From: Butyrivibrio sp.
GTDB lineage: Bacteria > Bacillota > Clostridia > Lachnospirales > Lachnospiraceae
DNA: 56,103 nt
Direction: 5' to 3'
NCBI GenBank assembly: GCA_024697425.1
Contig: JAILFT010000231.1
Coordinates: 1-56,103, forward strand
Position numbers and translations under genes: made by a program. Below, in pieces: positions 3,229-25,470 of this stretch (positions are counted from its first letter, which is position 1; each line of letters starts with the position of its first letter). Below the pieces are notes generated by a model, which worked only from the letters and a program-made list of their open reading frames with translations, searched no databases and was not told where the DNA came from.

Positions 3229-3347
3229 TTGGCCAACCAATCAACCAACCAGCCAATCAGCCACTAAGGAATATAGCCACTGCAGGGGGCCTTGTTTGAC
3301 TCCCCAATAGAGACAATCAGAACCGTCCCCATTGACTCCGGGCCCCA
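3229..3347. other. non-coding stretch with short repeats
   Basis: Directly after the stop codon come short CCAACC/CCAATC-type repeats (3231-3265). Further on, CCCCATTGACTCC occurs twice, at 3327-3339 and 3343-3355; the second copy supplies the -35 box of the next promoter. No hairpin with a T run is visible, so read-through from the DUF134 gene into the ABC-F leader is possible. Confidence 0.5.
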
Positions 3348-3376
3348 TTGACTCCCTGCAGAATTTGGGCTAGAAT
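3348..3376 (+). promoter_or_regulatory. sigma-A promoter of the ABC-F leader
   Basis: TTGACT at 3348-3353, a 17-base spacer and TAGAAT at 3371-3376. The predicted start near 3383 gives an untranslated leader of about 250 bases ahead of the ABC-F gene, which matches an attenuation-controlled gene. Confidence 0.7.
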
Positions 3377-3409
3377 TTCATTATAAAAAAAGAAAGAGCA
3401 CATCTGTGC

Positions 3410-3433
3410 ATGGGTGAAGAAATGAGGCTTTGA
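3410..3433 (+). CDS. leader peptide ending Met-Arg-Leu (regulatory uORF)
   Basis: An ATG at 3410 reads MGEEMRL then TGA at 3431-3433. A second in-frame ATG at 3422 would give the minimal peptide MRL. A purine-rich AAAGAG at 3394-3399 precedes the first ATG by 10 bases, and GGGTG precedes the second. Met-Arg-Leu is the established minimal sequence on which macrolide-bound ribosomes arrest, as in the ErmD leader. The stop codon is immediately followed by the base of a long hairpin (3432-3508), the geometry expected of a stalling-controlled attenuator. Translation and the inducing drug are inference. Confidence 0.65.
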   Translation: MGEEMRL

Positions 3434-3508
3434 TGATCACATTTAAGTTAACACGTATGTTTAACCCCGGAGACGGGCTTTTATGCGTGCGCCTTAAATC
3501 TGATTATC
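3432..3508 (+). promoter_or_regulatory. anti-antiterminator hairpin of the ABC-F attenuator
   Basis: Four stacked helices can be traced: 3432-3438 with 3502-3508 (7 pairs, one GU), 3441-3447 with 3493-3499 (7 pairs), 3452-3458 with 3483-3489 (7 pairs, one GU), and CCCG/CGGG at 3466-3477 closed by a GAGA tetraloop. The 3' strand includes 3484-3492, which alternatively forms 9 pairs (one GU) with 3578-3586 inside the downstream terminator stem. The hairpin therefore competes with an antiterminator. Confidence 0.7.
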
Positions 3509-3566
3509 GCAAGCTTCTTTCATTCCTACATGTTACCGGTGGGTGATATATGGGTTTGTTTTTGCG

Positions 3567-3610
3567 AGTCTGTTTTAGCGTACGCAGGTATGTCTGAAAC
3601 AGGCTTTTTT
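3567..3610 (+). terminator. attenuator terminator upstream of ABC-F
   Basis: A stem of about 17 pairs: 3567-3583 pairs with 3588-3605, with a GCAG loop, one bulged T at 3593 and a few GU pairs. The T run is at 3605-3610. It lies 26 bases before the ABC-F start codon, in the leader, so transcription must pass it for the gene to be expressed. The antiterminator pairing 3484-3492/3578-3586 would destroy its upper left arm. Confidence 0.85.
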
Positions 3611-3636
3611 ATTTGCTCCGGGAGATTGGAGGATAT

Positions 3637-5226
3637 ATGTCACAGATAAATGTAAGTAATCTCACCTTCGGGTATGAAGGAAGTTTTGATAACGTCTTTG
3701 AGGACGTGTCCTTTAGCATTGATACCAACTGGAAGCTGGGTTTCATCGGAAGAAACGGCAAGGGTAAGACCACGTTCCTTAGGCTCCTTCTTGGGGAATA
3801 CGAGTATAAGGGGAGCATAACCACCGATGCGGTGTTTGACTATTTTCCTTACATAATCCGGGGAAAAGAGCTGGATATGACAGCCGCGGAACTTATGGAA
3901 AAATGGAAGCCTCAGGCTGAGTACTGGAAGGTTTTGTGCGAACTTCCGCAGCTTTCAGTTGATCCCGGGCTCCTTAGCAGGCCCTTTAAAACCTTAAGCT
4001 ACGGCGAGAGGACCAAGGTCATGCTGGCGGTTCTTTTCTCGGGAGAAAATGACTTTCTTCTCATCGACGAGCCCACCAACCACCTGGACATGGAGGCAAG
4101 ACAGATCATAAAGAACTATCTATCCGGGAAAAAAGGCTTCATCCTGGTGTCCCATGACAGAGACCTTCTGGACGCCTGCGTGGACCATATGCTGATACTT
4201 AACAGGTCCACCATCGAGGTCCAGAGCGGTAACTTTACCAGCTGGTGGGAGAACAAGGAAAAGAAAGATGCCTTTGCCCGGATGGAAAACGAAAAGCACC
4301 AGAAGGAAATCGGAAAGCTCAAGGCTTCCGCCGACCGCACCTCAAGATGGGCTGAGAAAAGCGAGAATTCCAAGATCGGTTTTGATCCTGTTAAGGAAAA
4401 TGACAGGTCCATTGCCACCAGGTCCTACATCGGTGCCAAGACCAAGAAAATGCAGTCCCGGGTGAAAAACTTCGAAAAACGCATAGACCGCGAGATAGAT
4501 GAGAAGGAGGGACTTCTTCAGGACATCGAGGAGAACGCAGACCTTAAGATCATGCCCCTTAAACACTACAAAGAGAGGCTTATCCGGTGCAGAGACCTCT
4601 CTCTTAGGTACTCCGATGGAAAAGAGCCGGTGACCGAAAATCTCACCTTTGAAGTCAAGCAGGGAGAGATAGTGTTCCTAAACGGAGCCAACGGCAGCGG
4701 AAAGTCCAGTCTTATAAAGGCAATACTGCGCGAAATACAAGACGGGGGCGATAGAGCCGACAGCTGTGAAAGCCCCGAAAGCATGGAAAATCCGGGAAGC
4801 ATCTCCGCAAGCCAAGGCGGCAGCCTTTTGCTTACAGGCACCCTCACCGTTGCTCCCAACCTGACCGTATCCTACATCAACCAGGATACAAGCCACTTAA
4901 AGGGGAGCCTTAAAGCCCACGCCAAAAGCCTGAATCTTGATTACAGCCTGCTTTTGGCAATCTTAAGGCAGCTTGATATGAACAGAACTCAGTTCGAGAA
5001 AAACATGGAGGATTTTTCCGAGGGCCAAAAGAAAAAGGTGCTGATAGCGACAAGTCTTTTGACCCCGGCGCATCTCTATATCTGGGACGAACCCCTGAAC
5101 TATATAGATGTCTTCTCCAGAATACAGATAGAAAGGCTTATAGAGAAATACAAGCCCACAATGCTCATTGTAGAGCATGATGTAAGGTTCAGACAGAAGC
5201 TCTCGTCTAAAGAGATCGAGCTTTAA
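3637..5226 (+). CDS. ABC-F ribosome protection protein, Lsa-like
   Basis: A 529-residue protein with two ABC ATPase domains and no membrane segment. NBD1 has Walker A GRNGKGKTT (38-46), signature SYGERTK and Walker B LLIDEPTNHLD. After a charged linker, NBD2 has Walker A GANGSGKSS, SEGQKKK and IWDEPLNYIDV. The DTNWKLG(F)IGRNG start and the EPLNYIDV end are typical of Lsa-family proteins, which displace lincosamides, pleuromutilins and streptogramin A from the ribosome. NBD2 carries an extra stretch of about 30 residues after its Walker A, making the protein longer than typical Lsa (about 500). The ATG at 3637 has GGAGG 4 bases upstream; an ATG-like codon at 3613 overlaps the terminator and is unlikely. 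The leader attenuator predicts antibiotic-inducible expression. The stop overlaps the convergent amylosucrase stop. Confidence 0.9.
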   Translation: MSQINVSNLTFGYEGSFDNVFEDVSFSIDTNWKLGFIGRNGKGKTTFLRLLLGEYEYKGSITTDAVFDYFPYIIRGKELDMTAAELMEKWKPQAEYWKVLCELPQLSVDPGLLSRPFKTLSYGERTKVMLAVLFSGENDFLLIDEPTNHLDMEARQIIKNYLSGKKGFILVSHDRDLLDACVDHMLILNRSTIEVQSGNFTSWWENKEKKDAFARMENEKHQKEIGKLKASADRTSRWAEKSENSKIGFDPVKENDRSIATRSYIGAKTKKMQSRVKNFEKRIDREIDEKEGLLQDIEENADLKIMPLKHYKERLIRCRDLSLRYSDGKEPVTENLTFEVKQGEIVFLNGANGSGKSSLIKAILREIQDGGDRADSCESPESMENPGSISASQGGSLLLTGTLTVAPNLTVSYINQDTSHLKGSLKAHAKSLNLDYSLLLAILRQLDMNRTQFEKNMEDFSEGQKKKVLIATSLLTPAHLYIWDEPLNYIDVFSRIQIERLIEKYKPTMLIVEHDVRFRQKLSSKEIEL

Positions 5227-23818: not shown

Positions 23819-23825
23819 CTTTTTT

Positions 23826-24176
23826 AAGAGCAGAACTGTAAGCCGGGTTATGTCGTGAATGATCATCTATCTAGGACTGCTGTCACCAACAGCCTCAAGC
23901 GACCCACCTGAGAGCGAACCGGGCCGGCTCATAGCTCTCTGTTCGGTCTTGCTTCGGATGGGGTTTACATGGCTACTGATGTTACCACCAGCACGGTAGT
24001 CTCTTACACTGCCTTTCCACCCTTACCAGCCTCGAAGAGACTGGCGGTATCTCTCTGTTGCACTATCCTGGGAGTCACCTCCACCAGACGTTATCTGGCA
24101 TCCTGCCCTGTGAAGCCCGGACTTTCCTCTCCCATGCCCTTTCGTTTGCATGGCAGCGATCATTTATTCTGCTCAT
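23826..24176 (-). ncRNA. rnpB: RNase P RNA
   Basis: The RNA subunit of RNase P, which cleaves 5' leaders from pre-tRNA. Read on the minus strand it has the universal GAAAGTCCGGGCT block near the 5' end, the GAAGCAAGACCGAACAGAGAG region, and the 3' segment ACATAACCCGGCTTACAG. The terminal helix P1 is GAGCAGAA (24167-24174) with TTCTGCTC (23828-23835), which sets both ends. Length is about 350 bases, typical of bacterial type A RNA. A consensus promoter places the start point at about 24176. Small open frames across this region should be ignored. Confidence 0.96.
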
Positions 24177-24409: not shown

Positions 24410-25273
24410 ATGGAACTTAGAACAGCTTGTTCACCCAAGGACGAGAAATACTACGATACCAAGAGACTTCGAGAGGAATTCCTGATCGATGACCTTTTCC
24501 AGCCGGATACCATTAAACTGGTATACAGCCACATTGACAGGATCATCACCGGATCTGCGGTACCTGTTAAGGAAGAGCTGAAGCTTACAGCGGGAGATGA
24601 GCTTAGAGCTGAGTATTTCCTGCAGAGAAGAGAGATGGGAGTTATCAATATCGGCGGAGCCGGCGTTATCACCATCGACGGCAGGAAGTATGATGTGGAT
24701 TACAAGCAGGGCATGTACATAGGTATGGGGTCAAAAGATGTTTCTTTTGCCAGCGTAGACAGTGCTAAGCCTGCCAAGTTCTATATCAACAGCGCACCTG
24801 CCCACAAGACCTATCCCACTGTTCTTATCAAGAGAGAGGGAACACCTTCAGAAGATGTTGTCATCATCAAGGATGAGAACAAGAAGGAACTGGGAAGCCT
24901 TGAACAGGCCAATCACAGAGTTATCAACAAATACATCCTTCCCGGCCAGGTTGAGACCTGCCAGCTGGAGATGGGTATGACCGAGCTTAAGCCCGGCAGC
25001 GTATGGAATACAATGCCATGCCACACCCACGACAGAAGAATGGAAGTTTACCTGTACTTTGATATCCCAGAGGATGCACTGGTAATGCATTTCATGGGAG
25101 AACCCACAGAGACAAGACATATCATCATGAGAAACGAGCAGGCTGTTATCAGCCCCAGCTGGTCAATCCACTCAGGATGCGGAACTCAGGCTTATACATT
25201 CATCTGGGGAATGGTAGGAGAGAACCAGGATTTCGATGACATGGATGACTGTGAGATGTGTACATTGATATAA
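24410..25273 (+). CDS. kduI: 5-dehydro-4-deoxy-D-glucuronate isomerase
   Basis: A 287-residue cupin isomerase that converts 5-keto-4-deoxyuronate, from unsaturated pectin or glycosaminoglycan fragments, to 3-deoxy-D-glycero-2,5-hexodiulosonate. The metal site reads PCHTHDRRMEVYLYFD near residues 203-218 with a later His in SIHSGCGTQAYTFIW. The N-terminal RREMGVINIGGAGVI and EQANHRVINKYILP blocks match KduI. GGAGG lies 7 bases upstream. It is the first gene of the kduI-kduD-eda-kdgK operon and lacks a signal, so it is cytoplasmic. The expected start promoter and an inverted repeat lie just upstream. Confidence 0.96.
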   Translation: MELRTACSPKDEKYYDTKRLREEFLIDDLFQPDTIKLVYSHIDRIITGSAVPVKEELKLTAGDELRAEYFLQRREMGVINIGGAGVITIDGRKYDVDYKQGMYIGMGSKDVSFASVDSAKPAKFYINSAPAHKTYPTVLIKREGTPSEDVVIIKDENKKELGSLEQANHRVINKYILPGQVETCQLEMGMTELKPGSVWNTMPCHTHDRRMEVYLYFDIPEDALVMHFMGEPTETRHIIMRNEQAVISPSWSIHSGCGTQAYTFIWGMVGENQDFDDMDDCEMCTLI

Positions 25274-25276
25274 GTA

Positions 25277-25326
25277 TTCAAAGTCATTCAATGCTGTGCT
25301 TGCACAATGCATTGAATGACCTTGAA
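25277..25326 (+). repeat. long intercistronic hairpin
   Basis: 25277-25294 pairs with 25309-25326 (17 of 18 positions), capped by TGTG/CACA. It starts three bases after the kduI stop. There is no T run, so it is better explained as an mRNA-stabilising or processing element than as a terminator. Confidence 0.7.
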
Positions 25327-25391
25327 GACTGAACAAACATGAGGAAAAAAGATACATGAAGAATGAATGTATCGATTTCCGAATGTTTGTA

Positions 25392-25419
25392 GCATGTCGA
25401 GAGCGAAGCGGAGACATGC
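25392..25419 (+). repeat. second kduI-kduD intercistronic hairpin
   Basis: GCATGTC at 25392-25398 pairs with GACATGC at 25413-25419, with a loop containing GAGCGAAGCGGA. The loop core resembles that of the eda-kdgK hairpin at 27379. Confidence 0.55.
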
Positions 25420-25470
25420 GTATATATCATAATTATATAAACTAATATGACTATTTAGGAGGAAAATGTA

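Follow-up and report, generated by a model that had tools for sequence, protein, structure and literature searches.

A predicted minimal-uORF transcription attenuator ahead of an Lsa-like ABC-F gene in Butyrivibrio, and the leader family to which it belongs

The stretch analysed here, 56,103 nucleotides (nt) of contig JAILFT010000231.1 of Butyrivibrio sp. (assembly GCA_024697425.1) and hereafter called the window, encodes on its forward strand an Lsa-like ABC-F protein of 529 amino acids (3637-5226), preceded by a long structured leader. The gene was identified by profile search and by matches to solved structures. Its best-scoring NCBIfam family is ABCF_Lsa_all, where the 617.6 bits obtained lie below the curated cut-off of 750 for membership, whereas the 427.8 bits against the generic ribo_prot_ABC_F model exceed the cut-off of 380; the top solved structure is Lsa(A), 7nhk (E 2.7e-110). 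We suggest that the leader is probably a transcription attenuator with a minimal upstream open reading frame (uORF), in which a ribosome held by a drug on the ATG at 3422 would cause antitermination into the ABC-F gene.

In brief, the leader consists of a small 5' stem-loop, a tiny uORF, a long hairpin and an intrinsic terminator. The stem-loop (GCAC/GTGC, 3398-3409), which has an equivalent in an alignment of related leaders, lies directly 5' of the uORF Shine-Dalgarno (SD) sequence GGTGA (3413-3417), a GGTGR motif conserved in those leaders. The uORF, as read from leader comparison, is ATG AGG CTT TGA (3422-3433), encoding Met-Arg-Leu. Together with its stop codon it lies in the 5' side of a putative anti-antiterminator hairpin (3419-3521), predicted by folding and by covariation in 35 leaders, with helices 3431-3439/3501-3509, 3441-3447/3493-3499, 3452-3459/3482-3489 and 3466-3469/3474-3477. 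The initial annotation of this DNA had recognised a hairpin at about 3432-3508 with a GAGA loop, and the fold recovers it as part of this longer structure. The antiterminator 5' strand (3474-3492), found by a duplex search, comprises 3484-3492, which pairs with 3578-3586, and 3474-3478, which pairs with 3592-3596. The first of these is the nine-pair alternative helix proposed earlier, and it contains one G-U pair. Both partner strands lie within the intrinsic terminator (3566-3610, -22.2 kcal/mol), which was likewise annotated before and is seen here as a hairpin (3566-3606) followed by a U run. The fold places another hairpin (3525-3554) between the anti-antiterminator and the terminator; it is possibly comparable to the pause hairpin SL-2 of vmlR and may have a similar role. 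The leader folds to -93 kcal/mol compared to a mean of -64.6 kcal/mol in dinucleotide shuffles (z -6.08, 0 of 200 as low), and the antiterminator duplex has -23.3 kcal/mol compared to a shuffled mean of -16.1 (p 0.02).

For 110 loci, some of them duplicates, the upstream region was read; one of them, L069, has no upstream DNA. Thirty-five distinct upstream regions, chosen by pattern, have one leader in common, consisting of a small stem-loop, GGTGA, a tiny ORF and a long hairpin with a 3' arm resembling GGATTATCG. In the alignment of these 35 leaders, A1, four for which the pattern had picked a wrong upstream ORF (L007, L009, L035 and L057) were placed by hand. L015, L061 and L089, with the same fault, were not used, nor was L027, a duplicate, and L082-L084, L101 and L102 were left out as their contigs were already represented by other loci. 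A covariance model built from A1 finds the leader in 53 of 397 genomes of the family and in 43 of 392 genomes of the order, some of them outside the family (both at E up to 0.01), and in 53 of 79 genomes of the genus (E up to 0.1). The model adds leaders missed by the pattern, namely L029 (117.9 bits), L086 (64.1 bits), L087 (58.5 bits) and weaker ones. The set used for counting holds 132 leaders, obtained from 155 leader records by removing identical cores, each with a readable short uORF. It excludes L029, L086, L087 and the weaker leaders found by the model only, several weak model matches, and L203, L204, L206, L207, L208 and L209, which match the model without a regular short uORF; L237-L245 duplicate leaders already in the sample. 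An intrinsic terminator is present in all 35 leaders of A1, and a wider search found none in 4 of 125 leaders.

The gene behind each of the 132 leaders was classified by its best blastx match within approximately 1.7 kb. In 54 cases this is an Lsa-like ABC-F gene, in 49 a member of a second ABC-F family (MLQIKNLTITHRKDLR...) and in 13 a member of a third, Vga/Msr-like ABC-F family. The remaining leaders precede six GNAT genes, three ABC-2 permease genes, one MFS gene, one DJ-1 type gene and one gene without a Pfam family, and four are unassigned. It should be noted that single members of the small classes match themselves, because the references came from the same loci.

The hairpins of the leaders in A1 show compensatory change. 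For the long hairpin and the 5' stem in A1, 93.4% of the cells are paired compared to 88.7% in shuffles, and both sides have changed at 9 of 20 pairs compared to 5.1 in shuffles, amounting to 31 such cells. None of 500 shuffles reaches the A1 values for paired cells, both-side pairs or both-side cells, and sliding the partner by 1-3 columns lowers the pairing to 22-55%. The small 5' stem taken separately has 87.1% of its cells paired and both-side changes at two of four pairs. These values are to be read as support and not as probabilities, since A1 itself was the source of the structure and the shuffles take no account of kinship among the leaders. For the antiterminator, a test independent of structural alignment was made on 40 leaders that represent the clusters of the full 121. 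Cognate pairs of antiterminator and terminator have a mean of -20.82 kcal/mol compared to -16.08 (standard deviation 0.55) for permuted pairs, with 0 of 20,000 permutations as low, and cognate pairing is the better one in 719 of 778 terminator swaps. The window's cognate value, -23.3, ranks sixth of the 40 terminators, and the specificity of the antiterminator is therefore more a result for the leader family than for the window. Shuffles of single leaders are weak for some of the 35 (p 0.215 for L014, 0.290 for L031, 0.095 for L093 and 0.055 for L035). Judged from these alignments and permutations, there is covariation in the hairpins and coevolution between each antiterminator and its cognate terminator, which agrees with the comparison of helices across relatives that the initial annotation had proposed as a check.

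All leaders of A1 share the start codon of the uORF, the SD is also among the invariant columns, and in 121 of the 132 leaders GGTGR ends 4 nt upstream of the short uORF ATG. These elements match 3413-3417 and 3422 in the window. Hence the uORF most likely has three codons, starting from the ATG at 3422 with its SD four bases upstream, and not the seven codons from 3410 that had been annotated initially. An ATG at the -12 position, equivalent to 3410, is found in one of the 132 leaders, that of the window. The first stop or potential start codon upstream in frame is a stop in 80 leaders, GTG or TTG in 37 and ATG in 6; in the other 9 the frame stays open for 42 nt. In the window no stop codon interrupts the frame between 3410 and 3422, and a longer form may exist in the window genome alone.

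The peptides encoded are variable, with 42 distinct sequences among the 132 leaders. There are 116 four-codon uORFs, 15 of three codons and one of two, shares of length and sequence that are partly conditioned because the pattern requires a short ORF and the model columns include the uORF. Arg followed by the stop codon ends 119 of the peptides. Met-Arg-Leu occurs once, in the window; the leader of L085, which among relatives with the leader has the ABC-F protein most identical to the window's (81%), encodes MKN, and those of L002 and L010 encode MIIR. When M-R-L-stop was sought in at most 450 nt of sequence preceding the ABC-F gene in the 110 loci, one short match (-74, L109) was found besides the window, which again points to variable peptides.

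Folding of the window leader is consistent with a ribosome-dependent switch. The antiterminator has a probability of 0.00 without a ribosome, and of 0.91 and 0.85 with a ribosome on the ATG at 3422, for transcripts ending at 3586 and 3596, respectively. With CUU 3428 in the ribosomal P site the values are 0.91 and 0.95 for the same transcripts, and a ribosome on 3410 gives 0.00. Across the family, 121 leaders were folded with a half-made terminator and a ribosome footprint extending to 15 nt beyond the first base of the uORF start codon; the other 11 of the 132 have no score, seven with no recognised 3' arm and four with no terminator. A start-codon stall raises the mean number of expected antiterminator pairs from 0.65 to 7.80 and the number of leaders with at least four such pairs from 6 to 77 of 121, and no leader drops by four pairs or more. 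With the footprint moved 12 nt further upstream, 32 of 121 leaders have at least four pairs.

Based on these observations, we suggest the following mechanism. Without drug, the three codons would be read and the ribosome would depart, so that the 3419-3521 hairpin could form and sequester the antiterminator strand, and RNA polymerase would halt at 3566-3610. A pleuromutilin, lincosamide or streptogramin A, which prevents initiation or formation of the first peptide bonds, would hold the ribosome on the ATG at 3422, where its footprint, reaching approximately 3437, would open the base of the hairpin. The freed strand 3474-3492 could then pair with the half-made terminator at 3578-3596 and transcription would enter the ABC-F gene. 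The stall would occur at or just after initiation, and the peptide need not be Met-Arg-Leu. Comparison of the leaders establishes that SD and ATG are conserved, that the hairpin covaries, and that there is a terminator with a cognate antiterminator; ribosome stalling, the drug class, read-through and resistance are what we infer. Of the three-way attenuator first proposed to control the Lsa-like ABC-F gene, the ribosome-dependent switch is retained, and the macrolide arrest on Met-Arg-Leu is given up. The puzzle over the inducer spectrum then goes away, since the sensor would be a minimal ORF with an initiation stall, as in vmlR and cplR.

Several observations weigh against this mechanism. On a start-codon stall, 44 of 121 leaders stay below four antiterminator pairs, including that of L085 (0.0). 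The completed terminator beats the antiterminator in the window fold; as it wins at equilibrium, the switch would be kinetic and timing must matter. L001 and L003, close to the window by ABC-F protein (77% and 71%), have no leader detected by regular expression or covariance model. The near-constant terminal Arg is unexplained by a pure start-codon stall. For Butyrivibrio the mechanism is a prediction from sequence, and the resistance spectrum of the ABC-F protein is assumed from its likeness to Lsa, with a score below the Lsa cut-off.

The initial annotation explained the switch otherwise, with a seven-codon uORF from 3410 in which Met-Arg-Leu arrests the macrolide-bound ribosome at the Leu codon and opens the hairpin. 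The open frame back to 3410 agrees with this, as does the antiterminator freed when CUU 3428 occupies the P site. In addition, the form M-[K/R]-x-R, a +X+ pattern, is found in 24 of the 116 four-codon uORFs, and a study of ErmDL (PMC8298421) describes erythromycin arrest as tolerating changes in Arg-Leu-Arg, being less dependent on that motif and also using the N-terminal part of the peptide. We nevertheless consider the macrolide explanation very unlikely. Both the ATG at 3410 and Met-Arg-Leu are confined to the window among the 132 leaders, the frame upstream of the short uORF is most often closed by a stop codon, and a ribosome at 3410 frees no antiterminator. According to the same study, telithromycin arrest requires Arg6-Leu7-Arg8 and an A-site Arg, whereas in the window a stop codon takes the place of Arg after Leu. 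Neither a conserved Arg-Leu-Arg nor a conserved Met-Arg-Leu of the ErmDL and MRLR leaders is found, although Met-Arg-Leu itself is shared with them. Moreover, LsaA-type factors are described as protecting against pleuromutilins, lincosamides and streptogramin A.

The leader could alternatively respond in general to slow initiation or slow early elongation, caused by starvation, ribosome assembly defects or many drugs, with antibiotics as only one trigger. Its presence before GNAT, ABC-2 permease, MFS and DJ-1 type genes would fit such a role. The study of vmlR (PMC9226507) reports induction by ribosome assembly defects as well, and the toiL uORF of Escherichia coli is described as sensing several drug classes through stalls at the start codon and later. 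The best downstream match is to an ABC-F family in 116 of the 132 leaders (54, 49 and 13), and drugs countered by ABC-F proteins are therefore argued to be the main signal, which makes a general sensor rather improbable. Direct binding of a ligand by the RNA, as in a riboswitch, with the uORF incidental, is the explanation to which we give least credence. A long, conserved and structured leader ahead of a terminator is what a riboswitch would look like; against it, SD and ATG are invariant in A1 whereas 42 different peptides occur in the 132 leaders (a short ORF being part of the selection of leaders), and the stretches scanned gave no Rfam match.

The terminal Arg invites a further, tentative idea, which we think unlikely. 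Here the terminal Arg, or else a Lys or Arg at codon 2, would be the sensing element, a basic tri- or tetrapeptide code would set which drugs or termination faults arrest the ribosome, and the leaders would control a multi-gene regulon of Lachnospiraceae comprising the three ABC-F families, acetyltransferases and exporters. Lys or Arg is present in 130 of the 132 peptides. At cluster level, codon 2 is Lys or Arg in 8 of 10 three-codon uORFs without terminal Arg compared to 18 of 72 M-x-x-R uORFs (Fisher p 0.0012 at 0.80 clustering), a comparison made post hoc, after seeing the data. It is possible that the Arg codon stems from RNA pairing only. Pairing within the hairpin fixes the G and A of codon 4 (A1 columns 67-68), which leaves AGA, CGA, GGA and TGA as options; codon 4 is AGA in 102 leaders, CGA in 11, TGA in 9, AGG in 2 and another codon in 8, and never GGA. 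VmlR (MIN) and LsaA (MAGN) do without a basic residue and so show that none is generally required.

The leader has the parts of a minimal-uORF attenuator of the vmlR and cplR kind, namely a short uORF with an SD, a covarying hairpin that overlaps the uORF, a competing antiterminator and a terminator. In Bacillus subtilis vmlR (Takada et al. 2022, PMC9226507) a MIN uORF lies in an anti-antiterminator hairpin, followed by an antiterminator, an intrinsic terminator and a main-SD hairpin, and the gene encodes an ABC-F protein acting against pleuromutilins, lincosamides and streptogramin A. Start codon and SD of this uORF are required for induction, a 30S toeprint lies 16 nt from the A of AUG, and polymerase pausing matters; the variants MDN and MDK work, and MRK, also a natural variant, works less well. 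VmlR differs from the present protein in ABC-F subfamily, the present uORFs are mostly M-x-x-Arg-stop, and the leaders are likened by architecture. The leader of cplR in Clostridioides difficile (Obana et al. 2023, PMC10201436) is a clostridial ABC-F leader with a three-codon uORF, MR[I/M], near the MRL/MRI seen here; the start codon of its MRI uORF is needed for induction by lincomycin and retapamulin. There the SD of cplR lies sequestered in the terminator itself, and attenuation at the level of translation is enough for control, whereas terminator and main-SD hairpin are separate in the fold of the window leader. The same study gives different consensus peptides for short ABC-F uORFs (MR[I/M], MK[L/Q], MIN and MAGN). 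The lsa(A) leader has a four-codon uORF with the consensus MAGN (PMC10201436), which is without the Arg-stop, and Lsa(A) is the best solved-structure match of the window's protein. In the simplest reading, the leader would act like those of vmlR and cplR, for pleuromutilins, lincosamides and streptogramin A. The attenuator is thus of a known kind, and what is new is that one leader family precedes three ABC-F families and, in fewer cases, other genes.

Such a leader would provide a concrete rule for how Lachnospiraceae of the rumen and gut may sense drugs that block the first steps of the ribosome. The covariance model finds the genes behind these leaders, and a leader common to unrelated gene families would let candidate resistance factors, such as acetyltransferases and exporters, be named from their regulation. 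The Arg-stop rule raises the question of context-specific stalling by drugs that are described in PMC10201436 as little dependent on context.

The leader family is apparently undescribed, as far as Rfam scans and literature searches tell. Rfam 15 (4227 models) gave no match at the leader, with the window scanned at gathering thresholds and 3250-3700 at E up to 1, and nine loci gave none at gathering thresholds. Literature searches, which left most subscription papers outside their reach, found no description of the leader. Term-seq work from 2016 reportedly addressed riboregulation of resistance genes.

Some of the loci bear on how the leader may have spread. The nine leaders before GNAT and permease genes are 0.81-0.97 identical to the nearest ABC-F leader, which suggests that the leader may have been copied in front of new genes. 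The nearest leader overall is an ABC-F leader for L163 and L202, and one of the non-ABC-F group for the other seven. In L152 the leader is followed by an ABC-F reading frame of 101 codons and then by a GNAT gene, and in L197 and L198 a gene resembling uracil-DNA-glycosylase lies between the leader and the ABC-2 permease gene. L183, of the Vga/Msr-like family, encodes a protein scoring 455 bits against the generic ribosomal-protection model. A second, weak leader was found in the window's own genome (L112, G000:C37, 1501-1624, negative strand; 24.6 bits, E 0.067). It has a uORF encoding MLNR, a terminator and a strong predicted antiterminator response, from 0.0 to 18.4 pairs, and it precedes an MFS transporter gene with matches below cut-off to H+ antiporter and Mef models.

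Related structures were also seen in other settings. L203 and L204 carry a close copy of the leader, with no ATG at the uORF position, before a gene for an MsbA-like ABC exporter. In L206 and L207 a leader-like match precedes MFS transporter genes, and the uORF runs beyond the usual stop. A divergent leader with the uORF MRK lies before a gene judged by eye to be phosphoesterase-like and before an Lsa-like ABC-F gene (L226 and L228).

Upstream of the leader, the promoter proposed in the initial annotation was found again as a sigma-A-like candidate, TTGACT (3348-3353) and TAGAAT (3371-3376) separated by 17 nt; it agrees with the consensus at 10 of 12 positions, and shuffles yield a mean of 1.0 site as good, so that one is expected by chance. 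The sequence CCCCATTGACTCC occurs twice in tandem, at 3327-3339 and 3343-3355, giving two possible -35 boxes. At the other end, the fold of this one sequence predicts a small hairpin (3616-3631) in which CUCC pairs with the SD of the ABC-F gene, a possible translation-level layer of control. The upstream neighbour matches MrpORP and NifB models, all below cut-off, and the downstream neighbour is an alpha-amylase-type gene on the opposite strand; these flanking genes suggest a chromosomal rather than a mobile setting. Within the ABC-F protein, matches to several relatives are split in two in the second ATPase domain, at approximately residues 370-396 (window approximately 4744-4824). Elsewhere in the window, the Rfam scan located a Clostridiales-1 RNA (RF01699) at 25266-25429 on the positive strand and an RNase P RNA at 23823-24175 on the negative strand.

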